From positions 1 through 31,472 of the IMG/VR virus record IMGVR_UViG_3300034790_000061: 31,472 nt of DNA; one strand, written 5' to 3'. A model generated the notes under the pieces. That model saw only the letters and a list, made by a program, of their open reading frames with translations, had not been told where the DNA came from and did not search any database. The position numbers and the translations under genes were made by a program. Shown here one piece after another: positions 4,878-17,501 of this stretch (position 1 is its first letter; each line of letters starts with the position of its first letter). The stretch is from a virus.

Positions 4878-6155
4878 TTAATTAAGTTGTAATATAGTAT
4901 TAGTGTAAGTGGTAACATAATCATGCACATCAAGTCGTCTTGAGTTCTTCCAATATTTTGTCATATCTCGTAATTGTGTTAATTTAAGTTGTTTTGATTC
5001 AATATTATTGTTTAATTCATTATATTGTGACTCTAACATCGCAAATACGTCTTTGACTGTATTAATAAATTTTCCATTATATTGTTCTACCGATAATTTA
5101 AATTGTGCAAACGTATCCGCATCAATAAGTCCAGGTTCCATTCCCGATGGTGACGAGGCTAATACTACTTCTATGCCATTCGCAGTTATGTGAGGTAAAT
5201 GCTCTTCTGCATATTTGAATATATCTATTATTTTATGTACATTCAATACATGCATAACTGTACTAATTTCTAATGATATTGTTTGAATGTAGTTCTCGTT
5301 GTCAACTATTGCATCATGTATAGTGATATGGTTGTTCATTAGTTTAGGGAATTTAACAGGATATCTAATATATTCCGTTAATTCATCTACCGCATCAATA
5401 CTCAATACCATTATAAATTTCTTAAATTGTCCCATTAGTGGTAGAATAGGAATTGAACTTACTGTACCATTGGTAACTACTACGACTTGTATATTTTTTG
5501 AATAATCTGATTCAACTAAAAATTCCAACCAAGACTTGAATCCTGGCAATAGCATTGGTTCACCACCTGTTGTTTTAAATCTACGAATATCTCCTGCTAC
5601 TAATTTTAGTTGTTCTAATTCATGATCATCAAAATCAATTAATACAGTTTCTGGAGTAAGCCATATATCTTTAAGTAACGCTGGGATTTCATAATCATGT
5701 CGTTCTTGGGAAATTATACTTGAAGATGATGCAGAACACATTACGCACCCCATATTACACTTATTGCCAAACTTGATGTCTAATGTCTTTAATTGAACAG
5801 TACCTTTCTGTACAATACTGTTAAATAATTCAGGATTATTTGAACGTACTTGATTAGAAGATTCTAATCTCATTGATGTACCAGTTATTGATTCAAATGA
5901 TATGCATTTTGTACATGCGTTGATTGGTGCGCCACTTAGTGCTTTTTCACGTATTTCACCAAATGTACGATGATTAAAGAAAATATCTTTATGTGATTGA
6001 TTTTGTTTTTCTGCTGACGATACGACTATCTCACTATTACAACATAACAGGACGTTGTTAGCAGTGTCATTGCAAATTTCAATAAATGGCTTAACACAAA
6101 ATGATTCCCCATAGAGTACATTAAACTCTTCAAGACTTAGATTGTCTTGTTTCAT
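4878..6155 (-). CDS. Radical SAM protein, twitch/SPASM type
   Basis: 425 residues. The radical SAM cluster motif NKCNMGCVMCSASSS has Cys133, Cys137 and Cys140 (CxxxCxxC). The S-adenosylmethionine-binding GGEP motif is in FKTTGGEPMLLPG (about 193-205), and the strand VVVVTNGT follows. Ahead of the core, residues 20-84 hold further cysteines (Cys20, 28, 38, 39, 81, 84: SFCVKPF, NVLLCCNSE, CTKC) in the pattern of an N-terminal twitch/SPASM-like second iron-sulfur cluster. That architecture occurs in phage and environmental proteins called twitch-domain radical SAM proteins; as far as I know the substrate is unknown. Related SPASM enzymes usually modify peptides. A strong AAGGA ribosome site precedes the ATG. 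A second radical SAM system occurs at 30278-31364. Confidence 0.88.
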   Translation of the reverse strand: MKQDNLSLEEFNVLYGESFCVKPFIEICNDTANNVLLCCNSEIVVSSAEKQNQSHKDIFFNHRTFGEIREKALSGAPINACTKCISFESITGTSMRLESSNQVRSNNPELFNSIVQKGTVQLKTLDIKFGNKCNMGCVMCSASSSSIISQERHDYEIPALLKDIWLTPETVLIDFDDHELEQLKLVAGDIRRFKTTGGEPMLLPGFKSWLEFLVESDYSKNIQVVVVTNGTVSSIPILPLMGQFKKFIMVLSIDAVDELTEYIRYPVKFPKLMNNHITIHDAIVDNENYIQTISLEISTVMHVLNVHKIIDIFKYAEEHLPHITANGIEVVLASSPSGMEPGLIDADTFAQFKLSVEQYNGKFINTVKDVFAMLESQYNELNNNIESKQLKLTQLRDMTKYWKNSRRLDVHDYVTTYTNTILQLN

Positions 6156-8492: not shown

Positions 8493-8900
8493 CTATATAA
8501 AATATATGTTTTTAATTTGGGTATTTTTAGTGGATAAACTACTAGGATTCAATTTAATCGTTTCTTGCAATTCGGTGTGAACAGGTACATTATTACAGTC
8601 ATTTATTAAATGAGTATAGTCACCTTCTCCTGATTTATATGCATCTTCTATATCGGTGACAAATGCCATTTTCCAAACAGAATGTGTATCTTTGAATGTT
8701 GAACCAAAATCATATTCACTCATTGATGCATTATCAATTTTAGTCACAGTAACGTGTAATGGTTGAGTACGCATACTGAGAACTTGTGTCAATGAATTCA
8801 AATTTTGGGCTTGTCGGAATTCCATAGTGGAACCCTTGGGGTTATTAACGCCAGTATCAGTGATATCAACCAGCGTGTACAATACATGGTCTATGTGCAT
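8493..8900 (-). CDS. Conserved phage protein, unknown (135 aa)
   Basis: 135 residues, mixed alpha/beta, no membrane segment. The opening MHIDHVLYTLVDITDTGVNN, then PKGSTMEFRQAQNLNSLTQV and VWKMAFVTDIEDAYKSGEGD, suggests a compact beta-sheet domain, ending in a short tail (NTQIKNIYFI). No recognised domain. The ATG follows the upstream stop by one base (TAATATG), so it is co-translated with the 230-aa protein and is the last gene of the group behind the late promoter at 11094. A virion or assembly role is only an inference from position. Confidence 0.7.
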   Translation of the reverse strand: MHIDHVLYTLVDITDTGVNNPKGSTMEFRQAQNLNSLTQVLSMRTQPLHVTVTKIDNASMSEYDFGSTFKDTHSVWKMAFVTDIEDAYKSGEGDYTHLINDCNNVPVHTELQETIKLNPSSLSTKNTQIKNIYFI

Positions 8901-8901
8901 A

Positions 8902-9594
8902 TTAAAGTTCTAACGCTTTACCAGCCGCATAACCTACTGCAAATGCAGCGGCGCCCTTTGCCAATGTATTACCAATGCCTGCCTTCTTCTTATCATTAAT
9001 CTCAAGACCCTTTTCTTTTGCAAACTTTGCATATAACGGCATCAAATCACTGCGCCTAGCACTCATTCTGAAATATCTCATTAATTGAGTCGTAACCAAT
9101 TGCTGTTGCTGTGTTGATAATTTAGTCCAGTCTTGCGTAAGTCTACGCGCTGCACGTAACTTAGGATCTTGTATTTTTAAATCTTTTTCTAACTTAAAAA
9201 AGAACTGCTGCGCTGTTGCTGGTGTCATATTTCCAGTTTTGATCTTTTGTAAGAATTGCTTTATCTTAGGAGTATCAATTCTTACTTTACCCATCAACAT
9301 AGTATCTCTTTCATCAGTGAACATCTCACCCGGACGCTGAATACTAAAAATTGTTTGATATAAATCAGGACTGCTGGGACTCGGTCTATTAAAACTACCC
9401 ATTGCGGAAGTTCGCTGGGCATATGCCTTTGCAACTGGTGCATAGTTGTAATCATTGCTCATTGCATATAGACTCATAAGACTAACAAACAAATGATCGG
9501 TTAGACCTCTTGCGCCTACGCTTGCAATCTGATTTCTTGTTCTGAACATTCTTGCTTCGCCCAGTGTTTGCATAAATTCTAATTCATCTGACAT
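8902..9594 (-). CDS. Conserved phage protein, unknown (230 aa), glycine/alanine C-terminus
   Basis: 230 residues, largely helical. The N-terminal part contains LTDHLFVSLMSLYAMSNDYN and KAYAQRTSAMGSFNRPSPSS. A middle region (FLQKIKTGNMTPATAQQFFF, LSTQQQQLVTTQLMRYFRMS) looks like a helical bundle. The C-terminus (LAKGAAAFAVGYAAGKALEL) is a Gly/Ala-rich hydrophobic helix of the kind that can insert into membranes or pack inside a virion. The ATG overlaps the upstream stop (TAATG), so it is coupled to the ligase-like gene. No function is known; it may be a virion-packaged protein. Confidence 0.7.
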   Translation of the reverse strand: MSDELEFMQTLGEARMFRTRNQIASVGARGLTDHLFVSLMSLYAMSNDYNYAPVAKAYAQRTSAMGSFNRPSPSSPDLYQTIFSIQRPGEMFTDERDTMLMGKVRIDTPKIKQFLQKIKTGNMTPATAQQFFFKLEKDLKIQDPKLRAARRLTQDWTKLSTQQQQLVTTQLMRYFRMSARRSDLMPLYAKFAKEKGLEINDKKKAGIGNTLAKGAAAFAVGYAAGKALEL

Positions 9595-10826
9595 TATCTT
9601 ACCGCCCCTCTGTTTGCTGCACTAAATGTTGCTCTTGGTACAAACTTCATATCACCTTCTGGATTAGCAAGTACATAACCCTCACCGCCTGGCTGACCAT
9701 TAATGCTTTGCTTAACTTGTCCACCTTGACTGTCGAATTTGCCAATGATATCGTCTTTCGTAGCCATAACTGCTGCTACTACATTCCATAATGCAACGAA
9801 TGCAACTTTATGTTGTCCAATATATTCTAATACCTTACCTTTCATTTTATCTGACACTTGCTTTCTATTCTCTAACCAAGTTGGGAAATCTGCACCTAAC
9901 TTAGTTAGACCTGTGTCTACTTTACTATTCATATATGCGTATAGTAAATCTGGTAATGCTTTCATTTTTTGCGCGGTCAATGTGCTATCATTTAATAGTT
10001 CATCAACGCCCGATGCATTCTTTTTAATTATTTGCTCAAGTTGGTCAATAGCACCTGTATCAACTTCGACAGGTTGCTCAGTGGTTACACTTGGTACTAC
10101 CAATACATCCTGTTGACCATTAAACATCTCAATACTGGTGAACGGACCTTCTTTACCATTGGCATCTTCTTCTCTATGTATTACAATACCAGATTTACTT
10201 GCGCCAATACGCTTGCCTAAGTCGCTTTCTACATCTACTGCATAATCAACAATCTGTGGCTTAAACACGTAGTTCTTTTCAACAACGGGTGGGGTTGATT
10301 GATATAATAGATCACCTTTAAAGAATCCTCTATAGTCTGTTGGTACTGCCTTTTCATATATAGGAAATAAATTTGCTAACCTATTCGCAAATTCTATGCG
10401 CTTTGGGTCTTCACGGAACTTACCACCACTACGACTAAGCATGATATCTTGTAGTTGTTCTGCACTCTTTGCTTTACCATCGGTTTTAACTGCTACAAAC
10501 CCTGACTTGTCGGTGAATATAAACTCACCTTCTTGATCACGACCAAATACCATTGCAGGACTTCCATCCCATTTAAGTGTTACTGCTTTATGATCATCTC
10601 CTGACATGCTACGAAGTGCTGCAACTGCTCTCATTGCACCTGCGCTGCCTTGGTAGAATATTAAGTCTTCTACATGCTGTATGCGACTTTCTGATAGTTG
10701 AGTTTCCCCTAACTCAGATACATCAACATCATATAAATCAGCGCCATGCTTCATTCTGCGTTTTCTTGCATCACGATCTTCGCGTTTCTTCCTACCTGTA
10801 ATATTAATAATTTCTGAAATTTTCAT
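9594..10826 (-). CDS. Putative nucleotidyltransferase / polynucleotide-ligase-like protein (DUF6267-like)
   Basis: 410 residues. A basic N-terminus (GRKKREDRDARKRRMKHGAD) leads to a domain carrying motifs that resemble covalent nucleotidyltransferases (DNA/RNA ligases, capping enzymes): LKWDGSPAMVFG with Lys85 (motif I, KxDG), FIFTDKSGFVAVK, FFKGDLLY at 168-175 (motif III-like), SGIVIHRE at 212-219 (motif IV-like), and GEGYVLANPEGDMKFVPR at 381-398 (EGxV...KF.R, motif IV/V-like). I believe this family is catalogued as DUF6267 in T4-like marine phages, without a demonstrated activity. Long helical inserts (residues 255-345) are unusual for a ligase. First base overlaps: ATGA with the upstream gene and TAATG with the downstream one. 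It may join or cap nucleic acid, or be a derived non-catalytic copy. Confidence 0.72.
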   Translation of the reverse strand: MKISEIINITGRKKREDRDARKRRMKHGADLYDVDVSELGETQLSESRIQHVEDLIFYQGSAGAMRAVAALRSMSGDDHKAVTLKWDGSPAMVFGRDQEGEFIFTDKSGFVAVKTDGKAKSAEQLQDIMLSRSGGKFREDPKRIEFANRLANLFPIYEKAVPTDYRGFFKGDLLYQSTPPVVEKNYVFKPQIVDYAVDVESDLGKRIGASKSGIVIHREEDANGKEGPFTSIEMFNGQQDVLVVPSVTTEQPVEVDTGAIDQLEQIIKKNASGVDELLNDSTLTAQKMKALPDLLYAYMNSKVDTGLTKLGADFPTWLENRKQVSDKMKGKVLEYIGQHKVAFVALWNVVAAVMATKDDIIGKFDSQGGQVKQSINGQPGGEGYVLANPEGDMKFVPRATFSAANRGAVR

Positions 10827-11071
10827 TTTTTGTCCCGTAATTTTTTTACACCACGTACAAAACGATTTGGTTCTCTATTTTTAAGATCCAAGATCAAACG
10901 CTTTTGTAAATCTTGCGCAATCTCAGCATCATAAGTATGTTCTATCATTTCAAGAAGATTAATCATACTGCTCAGTACATTCACGCCACGAGTTTCTATT
11001 AATTCTGCGTTGTCTCGGGCTGGTGCAATATTGTTAATTTCTTCTAATAATGATCTAGTTCGTTTCTTCAC
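10823..11071 (-). CDS. Small conserved phage protein, GTG start (82 aa)
   Basis: 82 residues, helical, basic at both ends (MKKRTRSLLEEI; NRFVRGVKKLRDKK), with a conserved-looking core GVNVLSSMINLLEMIEHTYD. Homologues seem widespread in T4-like marine phages but have no known function. The start is GTG at 11069-11071, supported by a perfect GGAGG seven bases upstream. It is first in the late unit driven by CATAAATAC at 11094-11102 and overlaps the ligase-like gene by four bases (ATGA). Confidence 0.8.
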   Translation of the reverse strand: MKKRTRSLLEEINNIAPARDNAELIETRGVNVLSSMINLLEMIEHTYDAEIAQDLQKRLILDLKNREPNRFVRGVKKLRDKK

Positions 11072-11105: not shown

Positions 11106-12500
11106 TTAATCTTGTTTTCTTAAAATACTACGTAGACGTGCTGATTGATCTTCTGTGCTAGTAGGCTCAGGCGCTGACTCATTAGGACTATCAACTATTG
11201 TGTTTTTCTTCTTCAATTTATCATATATTGTACTAGATTGTGTAGTTATTGTATCTTGTTCATCGTCAGGTAAGTCAGTTATTCGCAATCCTTCAATATC
11301 AAATGCTAAATCAACTTTCTGTCCTACACCAGATGAACTACGTGTCTTCATAAATTGAATTTGATACCTACCACGCTCTCTCATTGCTTGACTTGTAAAA
11401 ATACCAATCACATTGTCTGCTGTTTGAATTTTACTTAAACCACCAGAAATATGACTATGATCAAATTCTACTTCTTCAACTGCTGATCTATTCAACTGTG
11501 ACGCTGTTGCAAACAATACATTATTCTCTACTGCAAAGTTACGCAATTCTTCTGATACATACTTGTCTTTAATGAACAAGTCACTCGCATTAATCTTTCG
11601 TCCCGCAGGAGTCATTAAATCCAAGTAGTCAACTAACATAGCATCTATACGCACACCATTCTGAACTTCAAATTCTCGCATATAACTTGTCAAATCATTT
11701 GTAGTGATACCATTAGGTACTTGAATTATTTGTAGTTTACCAGCATTCTTTCCTTGAATTCCAACTTTCAATGCTGTACCTTCTACATCATTAAAAATTG
11801 CTTTCGTGTTCATACCAGTTAACATACCATCAAGTCGTAAACCAGATAATTGCTCACTCAATTCTAGTGATACATACAATACATTCTTACCCATCAATGA
11901 CCAATTAAGTGCCAAGTTTTGTAAGAATAAACTTTTACCACCACCTGATGCTGCTGCGAAGATATTCAACTCGCCAGGATTGAATCCACCAAATAATTTG
12001 TAATCAACTGACTTCCAACCAGTACTTGTTCCTGCTCGTTCATGTCTTGCTGCGTTAATGCGTTCTTTAGGATCATCCCAATAGTTAATACCCATATGCT
12101 TTGCAAGTCCTACTTGCACTGCTTCTTTAATAATACGCTCTACTTCACCAAATTCACCTTTTTCTACTAGATCAGCACTTTGAAGAATAGCCGCTTCCAA
12201 TGCTTTGTGCTTACAAAATCCTTCAAACTCGTCAATGAACCAACTCTTATGTCTATCATCAATTGTATCACTAATGCCAGCCAACTTAATACCAGTAAGT
12301 GCGATAATCTGTTCAGGAGTGGGCAATGCACCATATGATGCTACATGCTCTTGTAAGAACACAACTGTCTTCCTAAGTGTTCTATCAAAATAACTTGCTT
12401 CTACGATATTATTAACTCGTAAAAATAAATCTTTGTCTTGTGCTAAAAACTCAATGAAAAGTTGTTGCAATTCCACTGTGTATTCTTTTGTTTCGTTCAT
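11106..12500 (-). CDS. 41: Replicative DNA helicase, T4 gp41 / DnaB family
   Basis: 464 residues. The ring-shaped replicative helicase that unwinds the phage replication fork with primase gp61. The N-terminal helical domain (1-150) is followed by a RecA-type motor: Walker A AASGGGKS (183-190), SLELSEQLSGLRLDGM (about 211-226), Walker B DAMLVDYLDLM (286-296), FATASQLNRS (DnaB-type sensor) and SHISGGLSKIQTADNVIGIF, then an arginine-finger region (MKTRSSSGVG). The C-terminus is a flexible Asp/Ser/Thr-rich tail. Start: ATG with AAAGGA upstream, own promoter at 12529-12557. A loader like T4 gp59 was not seen in the window. Confidence 0.96.
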   Translation of the reverse strand: MNETKEYTVELQQLFIEFLAQDKDLFLRVNNIVEASYFDRTLRKTVVFLQEHVASYGALPTPEQIIALTGIKLAGISDTIDDRHKSWFIDEFEGFCKHKALEAAILQSADLVEKGEFGEVERIIKEAVQVGLAKHMGINYWDDPKERINAARHERAGTSTGWKSVDYKLFGGFNPGELNIFAAASGGGKSLFLQNLALNWSLMGKNVLYVSLELSEQLSGLRLDGMLTGMNTKAIFNDVEGTALKVGIQGKNAGKLQIIQVPNGITTNDLTSYMREFEVQNGVRIDAMLVDYLDLMTPAGRKINASDLFIKDKYVSEELRNFAVENNVLFATASQLNRSAVEEVEFDHSHISGGLSKIQTADNVIGIFTSQAMRERGRYQIQFMKTRSSSGVGQKVDLAFDIEGLRITDLPDDEQDTITTQSSTIYDKLKKKNTIVDSPNESAPEPTSTEDQSARLRSILRKQD

Positions 12501-12528: not shown

Positions 12529-12557
12529 ATTATAACATATTATTGTTGTAAAGTCTA
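12529..12557 (-). promoter_or_regulatory. Sigma70-type promoter for gp41
   Basis: Minus strand TAGACT (12552-12557; 4 of 6 to TTGACA), 17 bases, then TATAAT (12529-12534). The -35 box overlaps the end of the methyltransferase-like gene. The leader before gp41 is about 20 bases and contains AAAGGA. Confidence 0.7.
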
Positions 12558-13304
12558 GTGTAATAGGTAATCTATATTACTCTTCCCTGCAACTATATAC
12601 TCTTCGTATTTTTTAATGACTGTTGCATAAAAATCAATATTCGGTGCCCAAATCCCCACAAAGTTTCCATAATGATTATTGTCACTACCATCTTTAAATT
12701 CAGATAAATCAAATATTACCATACCTTGAACAACTAATTCTTCAAATCTAATTTGGTGGTGCATCATACTCACATCTTTCATTGAGTCACCATTGCCGTC
12801 TGGTGTTTCTGTAATGTAACATCCTGTGTCACTTATTGCACGACTCCATGATGGGAGAGAATCACGCATATCAGGCCACGAGGTTGCACCATCATCTATT
12901 ACAATATCAAATTTTTCAGTTGATATTGCCGATAATGCCCTGTCTACTGTTTCTGGTATATACCCATCTTCACCTAATACCAGCGTACATTTTGTATACG
13001 CTGCGGTTTGCACTTTCGCATGTATTAAATTTTCAATGTGAACGAATTCATGACGAAGTGCATAATGGTATGGGTTGTCTGGATCAAACATATCAACACC
13101 CACAATTTCACAATCATCTGTTGTAACTTCGCACCATATGCGTATCTTAGATCCTTGTGATACTCCAATTTCACATAAACTCTTTATAGGTTGTTGTTGC
13201 TGTGATGCGTATAACATATCTGCAACAAAGTTGGAGAATCCACGCTGACTACATCGTAGAGATTCATCATCAGCCAATTTTTTCCATTTTTTTACATCTA
13301 ACAT
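12555..13304 (-). CDS. SAM-dependent methyltransferase-like protein (class I)
   Basis: 249 residues with a Rossmann-type methyltransferase core. SLCEIGVSQGSKIRIW (42-57) is motif I (E/D-x-G-x-x-x-G), EIVGVDMFD (66-74) places the acidic residue that would hold the ribose hydroxyls (Asp71), and KFDIVIDDGATSW (131-143) is the motif IV strand. This IDDG signature is typical of the Methyltransf_24/CmcI-like group, which acts on sugars and small molecules more often than on DNA bases. Nothing shows the substrate. It lies between primase and helicase, with ribosome site AGAGGA. Possible roles are modification of a nucleotide, a glycan or a virion component. Confidence 0.82.
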   Translation of the reverse strand: MLDVKKWKKLADDESLRCSQRGFSNFVADMLYASQQQQPIKSLCEIGVSQGSKIRIWCEVTTDDCEIVGVDMFDPDNPYHYALRHEFVHIENLIHAKVQTAAYTKCTLVLGEDGYIPETVDRALSAISTEKFDIVIDDGATSWPDMRDSLPSWSRAISDTGCYITETPDGNGDSMKDVSMMHHQIRFEELVVQGMVIFDLSEFKDGSDNNHYGNFVGIWAPNIDFYATVIKKYEEYIVAGKSNIDYLLH

Positions 13305-15639: not shown

Positions 15640-16198
15640 CAATCTTGTTTAATTGCATCACTACTACCATCGCGTATGAGTGAGCATGACTTTTCTTAAA
15701 GTAATAAGAATCATCTTCTGGTTTTACCCATATATTGTTCATCACAGTATCCCAATCCTTTCCAATCAAATAACTCTTTGCTGGACGAATCATTGCCAAC
15801 ACTGCTGCCAATTGACCAACACTACTGGGCTTCATTTGTTGAACAATACTAAAATGGGAATGTATATGAAAACATTTCTCAACAATTTCCCTATGTTCTA
15901 ATAGATCCCACATAGGTTCCATATCAATCAATTCATCAAGTTCTGCTTTGTTACTAATATCATTATATGCCGATACATTCAACAAATCCATTTTAAAGTA
16001 ACCCATCTTCTCGGCTTCTTTGTGATCTATTGTCGCTAATCCGTTATATGGATTAGTAGGAATCTCATGAAAATATACACCAGTGTTGTGCTTTTTTTCA
16101 ATATGTTCACGCTTTATCATCGCAGGAGTATTTTTAATAAGAGCAAGTAATTTATCTCTATTTGCGATGTCTATATCAATATCTGTATTAACTATCAT
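15620..16198 (-). CDS. Miniature DnaE-like protein (family C polymerase palm/finger fragment)
   Basis: 192 residues; the residues that match bacterial DNA polymerase III alpha occur in the right order: TDIDIDIANRD (5-15) for the palm PDIDIDF-type motif (E. coli Asp401/Asp403), HNTGVYFHEIP (38-48) for the HxxGV segment, MGYFKMDLLNVSAYNDI (65-81) for the GLVKFDFLGL segment (Asp71 at the third catalytic Asp position), FHIHSHFSIVQQMKPSSVGQ (110-129) and AAVLAMIRPAK for the FQ..S.GM...L.P....L.AL.RPG region, and FKKSHAHSYAMVVV (167-180) for FNKSHS(A)AYA. The full subunit is over 1,000 residues, so this is a drastically reduced form without PHP, most fingers, clamp- or tau-binding parts. It may be inactive or non-polymerising. 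It overlaps the QueC-like gene by four bases. Confidence 0.8.
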   Translation of the reverse strand: MIVNTDIDIDIANRDKLLALIKNTPAMIKREHIEKKHNTGVYFHEIPTNPYNGLATIDHKEAEKMGYFKMDLLNVSAYNDISNKAELDELIDMEPMWDLLEHREIVEKCFHIHSHFSIVQQMKPSSVGQLAAVLAMIRPAKSYLIGKDWDTVMNNIWVKPEDDSYYFKKSHAHSYAMVVVMQLNKIVKDSFS

Positions 16199-16809
16199 AC
16201 TAATCTACCAAATGCCCATTTACGTTCCGAACACCACCAACAATTATCGCAGTGAGTCCCATCTCTATTTTTAGTACAACTAAGAGTCAACGGGAATAAT
16301 GTATCGGTAATTCCCAAGTAGTCATACATTTCTGCAACTTTACTTTTATCAATATTATAGAAGGGTATGTAGATTGCACCATCACGCCTCCATACAGGTC
16401 GCACCTCGGACGATAGACGATCTGCTTCACCGTTTAACTCACTATTGAACGTTTTTACTACTTCCTCTGACGGATTAGATGTAATTCCTAAGTAGTATAG
16501 TTTAATATTTTCATCAGCAACAAGTGATTCATTCACCGCCTTTCTACCGTCAAATTCTCGCATATATGTTATACTATGCTCTACGCTATAATTATCAGTT
16601 AATTCTACTACTTTGTTAACCACCTGTGTTGCAGGGATTGTATTGCAATTATCAATACCAATGTTACCACTAGTCACTGCAATGACTTTATGTGGTGAAT
16701 ACTTCATTAATATATAAAGTAATAATGCACTATCTGCGCCACCACTAACATTGATTGCAATTTCTCCATCTGGGATGTGGATATCCACACCACATAAATT
16801 AATATCCAT
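16195..16809 (-). CDS. PP-loop ATPase, QueC-like (7-cyano-7-deazaguanine synthase-like)
   Basis: 204 residues from ATG 16807-16809. The PP-loop SGGADS (22-27) is that of ATP pyrophosphatases. The C-terminal zinc site has the exact QueC spacing: Cys178, Cys187, Cys190, Cys193 (C-x8-C-x2-C-x2-C in SCTKNRDGTHCDNCWWCSER), followed by a basic-aromatic end. IPFYNIDKSKVAEMYDYLGI fits the QueC IDKAE region. The central section is unlike QueC (no VPGRN-type motif), so the substrate is not certain. QueC makes preQ0, which phages can use to modify DNA. This start overlaps the upstream stop (TAATG) and puts the PP-loop near the N-terminus; a start 39 bases upstream is less likely. No preQ0-inserting enzyme (DpdA) is visible nearby. 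Confidence 0.75.
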   Translation of the reverse strand: MDINLCGVDIHIPDGEIAINVSGGADSALLLYILMKYSPHKVIAVTSGNIGIDNCNTIPATQVVNKVVELTDNYSVEHSITYMREFDGRKAVNESLVADENIKLYYLGITSNPSEEVVKTFNSELNGEADRLSSEVRPVWRRDGAIYIPFYNIDKSKVAEMYDYLGITDTLFPLTLSCTKNRDGTHCDNCWWCSERKWAFGRLV

Positions 16810-17501
16810 TATCCTATACTCGCTTGCTTCAAAATAGTTTCCACCCATTGTAAATCTTTAACTTCATTCTTACGCTTCAATCGTATCTGCCAATATTGAG
16901 GATCAATATAATCCACAATCATTTCAATCTGCTTGTTATTCAACATGTCCAATAAACTCTGTGCATCATTACTTGCATAGATAACCCACGGACTAATTCT
17001 ACCAGAACATATATGAAATACCGCTAGACTCGGTGCTACTGTTTTGAAATAGGTATTCCAATCATTCTCTCTATCTTCTGCCCAATCTTGCATTGACAAT
17101 ATTGTACGCTCAACTGCCCTGTCAACACTTTCAACTTTCAATCTCTCTTTTACCCAACCGCTAAACTTTGCATCATGTGTCCACTGATCTAGTTTTACTT
17201 GATTCTTTAACAACCATGTAGTATAACTAGTAACATCATCTATCTTAACTTCAATGCAATATTTACCATACTTTATGAAGGCAGCATAATACGAACTTTT
17301 TGCAAATTCCGTATAAGATTTTTCTTTCTTTGAATTTGTGCCAATACGATAGAACAACTGATATGCACGATATCCTAATTGAACATCTTTGTCATTCTCT
17401 TGCATATGTCGTTTTTTCTGCACACACATATGCACAATGAGCGTATTTTCACGCTTAAAGTCTTTATTGCAGTATTCACACTTGTACGATATTGGTTGCA
17501 T
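16809..17501 (-). CDS. C2H2/C2HC zinc-finger protein of phage type
   Basis: 230 residues. The N-terminal YKCEYCNKDFKRENTLIVHM has Cys8-x2-Cys11, His24 and then His32 or Cys26: a classical C2H2- or C2HC-type finger with the usual Phe and Leu core. The rest is helical with a basic/aromatic surface (GYRAYQLFYRIGTNSKKEKS; SSYYAAFIKYGKYCIEVKID). The C-terminal half (APSLAVFHICSGRISPWVIY, PQYWQIRLKRKNEVKDLQWV) forms an alpha/beta region without a known motif. Proteins with one such N-terminal finger recur in marine T4-like phages, from memory, without a role. It overlaps the preceding gene by 26 bases, with no good ribosome site, so coupling is likely. It would bind nucleic acid or a partner protein. 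Confidence 0.78.
   Translation of the reverse strand: MQPISYKCEYCNKDFKRENTLIVHMCVQKKRHMQENDKDVQLGYRAYQLFYRIGTNSKKEKSYTEFAKSSYYAAFIKYGKYCIEVKIDDVTSYTTWLLKNQVKLDQWTHDAKFSGWVKERLKVESVDRAVERTILSMQDWAEDRENDWNTYFKTVAPSLAVFHICSGRISPWVIYASNDAQSLLDMLNNKQIEMIVDYIDPQYWQIRLKRKNEVKDLQWVETILKQASIG

Follow-up and report, generated by a model that had tools for sequence, protein, structure and literature searches.

A widespread phage protein of the DUF6267 family with a predicted RNA-ligase-like nucleotidyltransferase fold and a putative capsid-targeting extension

The window analysed here is a whole stretch of viral DNA of 31,472 nucleotides (positions 1 to 31,472 of IMG/VR record IMGVR_UViG_3300034790_000061). 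The gene under study (Table 1) is an open reading frame with an ATG start and no internal stops. An ATGA overlap joins its start to the preceding 82-aa frame, so the long N-terminus belongs to the gene. In a Pfam scan the product was identified as DUF6267 (PF19782) at 3.7e-33 over residues 49-405, with 115.9 bits against a gathering cut-off of 27 bits. Its PHROG group (455) has no assigned function, and a literature search found no paper that names DUF6267 and no report of it as a ligase. The description of the family in the original prediction, as a widespread phage protein without a known role, was correct: by tblastn, 470 phage records contain a member. It is a real, under-annotated enzyme family. 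One relative, in Synechococcus phage metaG-MbCM1 (JN371769.1 145344-145583; BFVD H8ZNG8), is labelled a ribonucleotide reductase subunit, apparently a misannotation.

In the window the DUF6267 gene comes after genes for a primase, a DnaB-type helicase and the 82-aa protein, and farther upstream are DNA polymerase, helicase, UvsX/RecA and terminase genes; in cyanophages it comes after gp43, uvsX, gp41 and mazG. The gene had been assigned to a late transcription unit. This assignment is not supported: the neighbours are replication genes, and the stretch upstream of the gene has no T4-type TATAAATA on the same strand. A scan for TATAAATA found two where 4.8 were expected, one of them (4849) on the gene's strand, and a scan for sigma-70-type promoters was uninformative.

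Some neighbouring genes deserve mention in their own right. Many relatives of the 82-aa protein carry an early LLEE or LIE(T/S) stretch, and the protein is a possible prohead core protein. The same cluster in the window holds a Radical-SAM-like protein (4878-6155), a weak methyltransferase match (12555-13304) and a QueC-like protein (16195-16848), which are possibly concerned with nucleotide or DNA modification. In loci of the cyanophage type (L136:1175-2071, L119:2640-4001, L140:2613-3977, L143:1541-2956) the gene directly upstream of DUF6267 belongs to one of several unrelated-looking families that share, by eye only, a D...(G/F)hSxK pattern, suggestive of PD-(D/E)xK nucleases.

Table 1. Features of the DUF6267 gene and its neighbours in the window (an arrow marks a putative cleavage position)
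Feature	Position	Strand	Basis
DUF6267 protein, 410 aa; predicted covalent nucleotidyltransferase with RNA-ligase-like fold	9594..10826	(-)	ORF, Pfam, model, PDB comparison
Residues 1-46, N-terminal extension ending L44-S45-E46↓S47; putative capsid-targeting propeptide and prohead-protease site	10689..10826	(-)	pLDDT, [LIVM]xE count, T4 likeness
Motif I, L84-K85-W-D87-G88-S-P90-A91	10554..10577	(-)	Conservation; agrees with PDB alignment ranges
Motif III, FFKGD172LLY (residues 168-175)	10302..10325	(-)	Model strand 167-175; D in 162/163
SGIVIH217RE (212-219), mid-domain strand, motif IIIa-like	10170..10193	(-)	Strand 212-221; H217 in 162/163
Helical insert separating motifs IIIa and IV, about residues 253-370	9717..10070	(-)	DSSP on models
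Motif IV, G-E382-G383-Y-V385-L (GEGYVL, 381-386)	9669..9686	(-)	E and G invariant, 163/163
Motif V, M-K394-F-V-P-R398 (MKFVPR, 393-398)	9633..9650	(-)	K394 and R398 invariant, 163/163
Upstream 82-aa gene, PHROG 11854 'virion structural protein', ATGA overlap	10823..11071	(-)	Same family upstream in 70 loci
Downstream 230-aa gene, no recognised fold	8902..9594	(-)	Adjoins DUF6267 in 72 loci
Next downstream gene, 135 aa, no assigned role	8493..8900	(-)	Conserved in 68 loci
DnaB/gp41-type replicative helicase, upstream	11106..12500	(-)	Related helicase in 87 loci

Are the ligase-like strings in this protein more than chance? Relatives drawn from viral contigs were placed in two alignments, one of 110 distinct sequences, whose identity to the window protein ranges from 75% to about 20%, and a separate one of 53 short cyanophage forms, 163 in all. 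K85, D87, G88, E382, G383, K394 and R398 are invariant across both sets, as are H51, E53 and D54 of an HxED stretch; for motif I and the HxED stretch this is partly by construction, since both were in the search patterns for the 110 sequences. Motif I was not in the pattern used for the 53, and motifs III, IV and V were selected in neither set. Judged by this conservation the motif strings are not chance, and Lys85 is the predicted nucleotidylated lysine.

The elements follow one another as motif I, a helical pair, the motif III strand, the SGIVIH strand, the helical insert (much shorter in the cyanophage short form, by DSSP on the models), EGYV and K394. The strings that had been read as motifs I, III, IV and V are all present in the order claimed, but two of the names had to change. 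SGIVIHRE is not motif IV: it sits in the middle of the domain, no acidic residue is conserved where motif IV would have one, and the end points of the model, which set motif V at K394, also rule it out. The GEGYVL...MKFVPR string, taken as motif V in its entirety, divides into motif IV (E382GYV, 382-385) and motif V (K394). The motifs also depart from the classical pattern. The canonical Glu of motif III occurs in none of the 163 sequences, its place being taken by Asp172, and in motif V a single Lys stands where KxK is usual, the second Lys being Val, so the activity could differ from that of classical ligases. Only 16 residues follow Lys394 to the end of the protein, leaving no room for a C-terminal OB domain; both this domain, which is expected after motif V in an ATP-dependent DNA ligase, and motif VI are absent from the window protein.

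Structures were predicted for two members of the family. The AlphaFold model of the window protein, built on the 110-sequence alignment, had a pLDDT of 89.4 and a pTM of 0.84; residues 1-45 were disordered and the remainder, core blocks included, stood at about 97 pLDDT. A second AlphaFold model, of a distant 308-aa short form (L279) and based on an independent alignment, had a pLDDT of 92.4; by tblastn this short form is the one present in P-SSM4 (gp154). Both models have the nucleotidyltransferase fold. When the window model was compared with the PDB using VIA-align, the best 43 entries were only DNA/RNA ligases or capping enzymes. The top match was the Naegleria RNA ligase (Z 8.5, 182 residues, 4.1 A), and REL1 (Z 7.1), T4 Rnl1 (6.9), Trl1 (6.6) and Rnl2 (6.5) came lower; capping enzymes (5.1) ranked below the ligases, and unrelated chains began only at about Z 4. 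For the L279 model, all 50 entries listed belong to the covalent nucleotidyltransferase superfamily, among them T4 Rnl1 (Z 8.1, rmsd 3.4 A over 155 residues) and the Naegleria RNA ligase (Z 8.1). RNA ligases outrank DNA ligases in both comparisons. According to the alignment end points, K285 of L279, the equivalent of K394, lands no more than about one residue away from the lysine of motif V in Rnl1, the Naegleria enzyme and Rnl2, which we take to be K240, K326 and K225, respectively.

Foldseek alone was weak: the best match of the window model was a tRNA ligase (E 0.09), and neither model gave an E-value below 0.001. At 6 to 8.5 the Z values are middling, not high in themselves; the case for the predicted fold rests instead on both PDB lists holding essentially one superfamily. 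The original prediction of a hidden covalent-nucleotidyltransferase domain with Lys85 in motif I, for which comparison of an AlphaFold model with known structures had been proposed as a check, is well supported by these models, and we consider it very probable that the window protein has this fold with Lys85 as its nucleophile.

Another proposed check, profile comparison to RNA and DNA ligases, did not detect the relationship. When hhalign was run against the Rnl1, Rnl2 and gp30 profiles and 16 decoys, with the helical insert kept or removed, no ligase beat the best decoy, and one decoy, a Pol-beta-like family, scored as well as the ligase profiles. The sole placement worth noting, which was not significant, set motif IV on EGYV of T4 Rnl1 and Rnl2. 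PDB searches by phmmer and by profile, with the window protein or its family, gave no significant match. In Pfam scans RNA_lig_T4_1 (PF09511) was matched by one of the 110 relatives, only at 0.017, and not by the window protein; PF01068 was not among the top families for the window protein or the 110 relatives, the Rnl2 family PF09414 did not match the window protein, and PF09511 and PF09414 were silent in cyanophage records. By HMM, then, DUF6267 does not belong to the Rnl1, Rnl2 or gp30-type families, because it has no sequence match in the PDB and hhalign does no better than a decoy. Its kinship with ligases is undetectable by sequence methods alone.

The N-terminus tells a different part of the story. 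In the window model pLDDT is below 50 at residues 1-18 and 24-45, and the disordered N-terminus of relatives ranges from about 10 to 60 aa. An [LIVM]xE site at -12..-6 before H51 was found in 63 of 64 distinct window-branch N-termini against a mean of 11.9 (maximum 22) in 2000 shuffles, a comparison that is not a clean probability because the 64 are related sequences. The extension varies in length and position among these 64 and the site stays. Many of them start M[KR]F.EF, which resembles MKTYQEFIAE↓A of T4 ipII/ipIII; the T4 capsid-targeting sequences and their cleavage after Glu have been described (PMC9026906, PMC5694885). Stenotrophomonas phage DLP_6, whose protein starts MKFTQFLAE↓S, and Melnitz-2 are examples of phages that bear the tag. 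An S77 prohead protease is encoded in all ten records searched; the window itself is a fragment, and its 149-kb relative (G001) has a T4-type S77 protease at 2.9e-27. Most cultured cyanophage members (MAKNTHLEH, MPNKHLEH, MFSFKGF..) lack the [LIVM]xE site, which speaks against a need for it in the fold. Going by these sequence features, packaging of the window-branch protein in the capsid seems moderately probable. The suggestion that the enzyme may act on virion or packaged DNA gains partial, and unexpected, support from this likeness to a T4-type capsid-targeting propeptide.

Two kinds of partner accompany DUF6267 in relatives of the window, which itself has neither. In about 45 window-branch relatives a protein with a Pol-beta signature is encoded directly upstream (e.g. 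L048:513-1208 and 44 similar loci), and in L106 and L052 it is fused to DUF6267. A G, SGD[LIM]D and a third Asp are invariant in this protein, and most members have LxE↓GG at the equivalent boundary; since there is no Pfam or PDB match, its Pol-beta class is assigned from residues alone. A HIGH-type nucleotidyltransferase is encoded downstream of DUF6267 in 67 loci and fused to it in L167, L175 and L190. The nearest named families of the HIGH proteins are NMN adenylyltransferases, all below cut-off, and a PDB search with their profile gave nothing at 0.01. A single ORF of a 328-kb phage contig (L113:4025-6238) combines DUF6267, a HIGH-type nucleotidyltransferase and an Acb1-type 2H domain. These links favour a role in nucleic-acid end repair, short of proof. 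It is of note that the Acb1-type domain bears the 2H motifs LHMTV and PHSSV and that the L113 contig also matches Rnl1, Rnl2 and DNA ligase. At L191:1734-3785 and L170:3148-6783 the HIGH proteins downstream of DUF6267 extend into multi-domain proteins with RimK-like ATP-grasp, retropepsin-like, HNH and DUF5824 parts, often with [FIL]xE↓A ahead of the HIGH domain, and are reminiscent of polyvalent proteins that are injected.

The 470 records with DUF6267 comprise 371 Synechococcus, 61 Cyanophage, 24 Prochlorococcus, 4 Methylophilales and 2 Pelagibacter records and a few others. A tblastn search with cyanophage UvsX at 1e-60 gave 374, 61, 24, 4 and 2 for the same five names, and this near-match makes DUF6267 nearly a core gene in T4-like cyanophages. 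The T4 gp30 and DLP_6 ligase queries matched thousands of phage records, and neither Synechococcus nor Cyanophage was among the ten commonest names. Thirteen records were then surveyed with PF01068, PF09414, PF01653 and PF09511. None of the four ligase families was found in five Kyanoviridae (P-TIM40, Melnitz-2, P-SSM4, S-SSM7 and S-SZBM1) or in three large contigs, one of which is the window's 149-kb relative. DLP_6, EniLVp02, Vibrio phage 2.275.O and G003 have DUF6267 together with an ATP DNA ligase, and three of these four have RNA ligases too. T4, the positive control, showed three of the four families and no DUF6267. Cyanomyoviruses are described as having the T4 replisome without a g30 homologue, and it has been argued that host LigA could serve them (PMC2984593); most subgroup 2.1 jumbo phages, cyanophages included, 'lack any known DNA ligase' (PMC7824862). 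AAX44695.1 of P-SSM2, suggested to be a stand-alone ligase DNA-binding domain (PMC7824862), was considered as a neighbour of DUF6267 and dropped, since it lies at 243-244 kb and DUF6267 at 58.6 kb. AAX44695.1 (L359:21440-22060) matches Pfam DUF6433 (5e-35).

What, then, might the protein do? Its fold and active-site residues suggest that it probably joins nucleic-acid ends, and we consider it likely overall to be a divergent covalent nucleotidyltransferase that works like an RNA-ligase-type polynucleotide ligase. Lys85 would take AMP from ATP (or NAD+) and pass it to a 5'-phosphate end, and the adenylated end would be joined to a 3'-OH. RNA or RNA-like nicks would be likelier substrates than plain DNA; for an RNA-type substrate as such the case is evenly balanced. 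In the window branch a precursor would be made and enter the prohead, where the S77 protease would cut it after Glu46; the mature enzyme would be ejected together with the DNA and act early in infection on broken nucleic acid ends, in many relatives alongside the Pol-beta-like protein as an end-filling enzyme. In T4-like cyanophages the untagged domain would be an intracellular core enzyme beside gp41. The fullest version of this scheme, in which a new ligase-fold family is near-universal in T4-like cyanophages without a recognised ligase and, in another branch of marine phages, enters the capsid by means of a cleaved tag and leaves it again, along with a Pol-beta-like partner, as a ready-made kit for nucleic-acid repair, we put forward tentatively, as less than an even bet.

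The distribution raises another reading, that DUF6267 supplies the replicative DNA ligase missing from T4-like cyanophages and their relatives, sealing Okazaki nicks beside gp41/DnaB. The near-universal occurrence in parallel with UvsX, the eight ligase-negative records, the published gap (PMC2984593, PMC7824862) and the adjoining replicative helicase are all in its favour. An OB domain and motif VI are absent, however, both structure comparisons place RNA ligases ahead of DNA ligases, host LigA could do the work (PMC2984593), and DLP_6, EniLVp02, Vibrio phage 2.275.O and G003 have an ordinary ATP DNA ligase as well. It remains a rival because of this coexistence and the missing OB domain, and we think it unlikely. 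Nor does the fold have to mean ligation: the enzyme might adenylate ends, proteins or a small molecule, perhaps with NAD+ regenerated by the adjacent HIGH protein. The Asp in motif III and the single motif V Lys would fit, as would frequent fusion or adjacency to HIGH nucleotidyltransferases nearest (below cut-off) to NMN adenylyltransferases. The NAD+ idea, though, comes from neighbours alone, the window branch has no HIGH partner, and HIGH proteins are also tied to RimK, retropepsin and DUF5824 without visible ligase logic; we regard this reading as improbable.

Transfer of GMP, as by a capping-type enzyme, is the least credible alternative: capping enzymes have the same fold and do appear in the PDB list, but they come below the ligases there and use an OB domain that DUF6267 lacks. 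Middling Z values and the lack of a significant sequence match are what one would expect if the motifs had converged on a common fold arrangement in a structural or regulatory protein. Against this, nearly everything that the two models, built from independent alignments, retrieve belongs to a single superfamily, and unrelated folds score distinctly lower. The invariance of the key residues points the same way, and we regard convergence as very improbable. Should the RNA-ligase-type end-joining reading and the tag both hold up, some phages would deliver an enzyme for mending nucleic acids into the cell as infection begins, ahead of any phage gene expression. T4-like cyanophages have nearly the whole T4 replisome and no recognised DNA ligase, and a near-universal gene with a predicted ligase fold makes that gap testable.

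Among known systems, T4 RNA ligase 1 (gp63; PF09511) and the ligase domain of fungal Trl1 are similar in fold (Rnl1 Z 6.9 and 8.1), in the KxDGS motif I, in having no OB domain and in an EGYV motif IV followed about 12 residues on by the motif V Lys. DUF6267 differs from them in the absence of HMM-level similarity, in its motif III Asp and single motif V Lys, in the helical insert between IIIa and IV and the N-terminal HxED motif, and in lacking the Rnl1 C-terminal domain. The Naegleria gruberi RNA ligase (6vt8, 5cot) comes closest in structure to both models (Z 8.5 and 8.1), at about 10% identity, but the alignment begins at its residue 143-145 and the part before this has no DUF6267 counterpart. 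T4 gp30 ATP-dependent DNA ligase (PF01068) shares the superfamily, and DUF6267 sits in the replication locus of phages without gp30; DUF6267, however, has no OB or DNA-binding domain, is undetected by PF01068 and coexists with gp30-type ligases in some phages. RlaP, an RNA-ligase-associated Pol-beta nucleotidyltransferase, sits beside known RNA ligases (PMC7824862), much as in many DUF6267 relatives a protein with the Pol-beta signature adjoins the ligase-like domain or is fused with it, the differences being that the DUF6267 partner matches nothing in Pfam and that the window lacks it. T4 IPII/IPIII and Alt, finally, have a short N-terminal extension, often M[KR]F.EF...[LI]xE↓A/G/S, directly before the mature domain, and the window's close relative likewise encodes an S77 protease; the DUF6267 extension is up to 60 aa long, its packaging is predicted, and the tag is absent from most cyanophage members.
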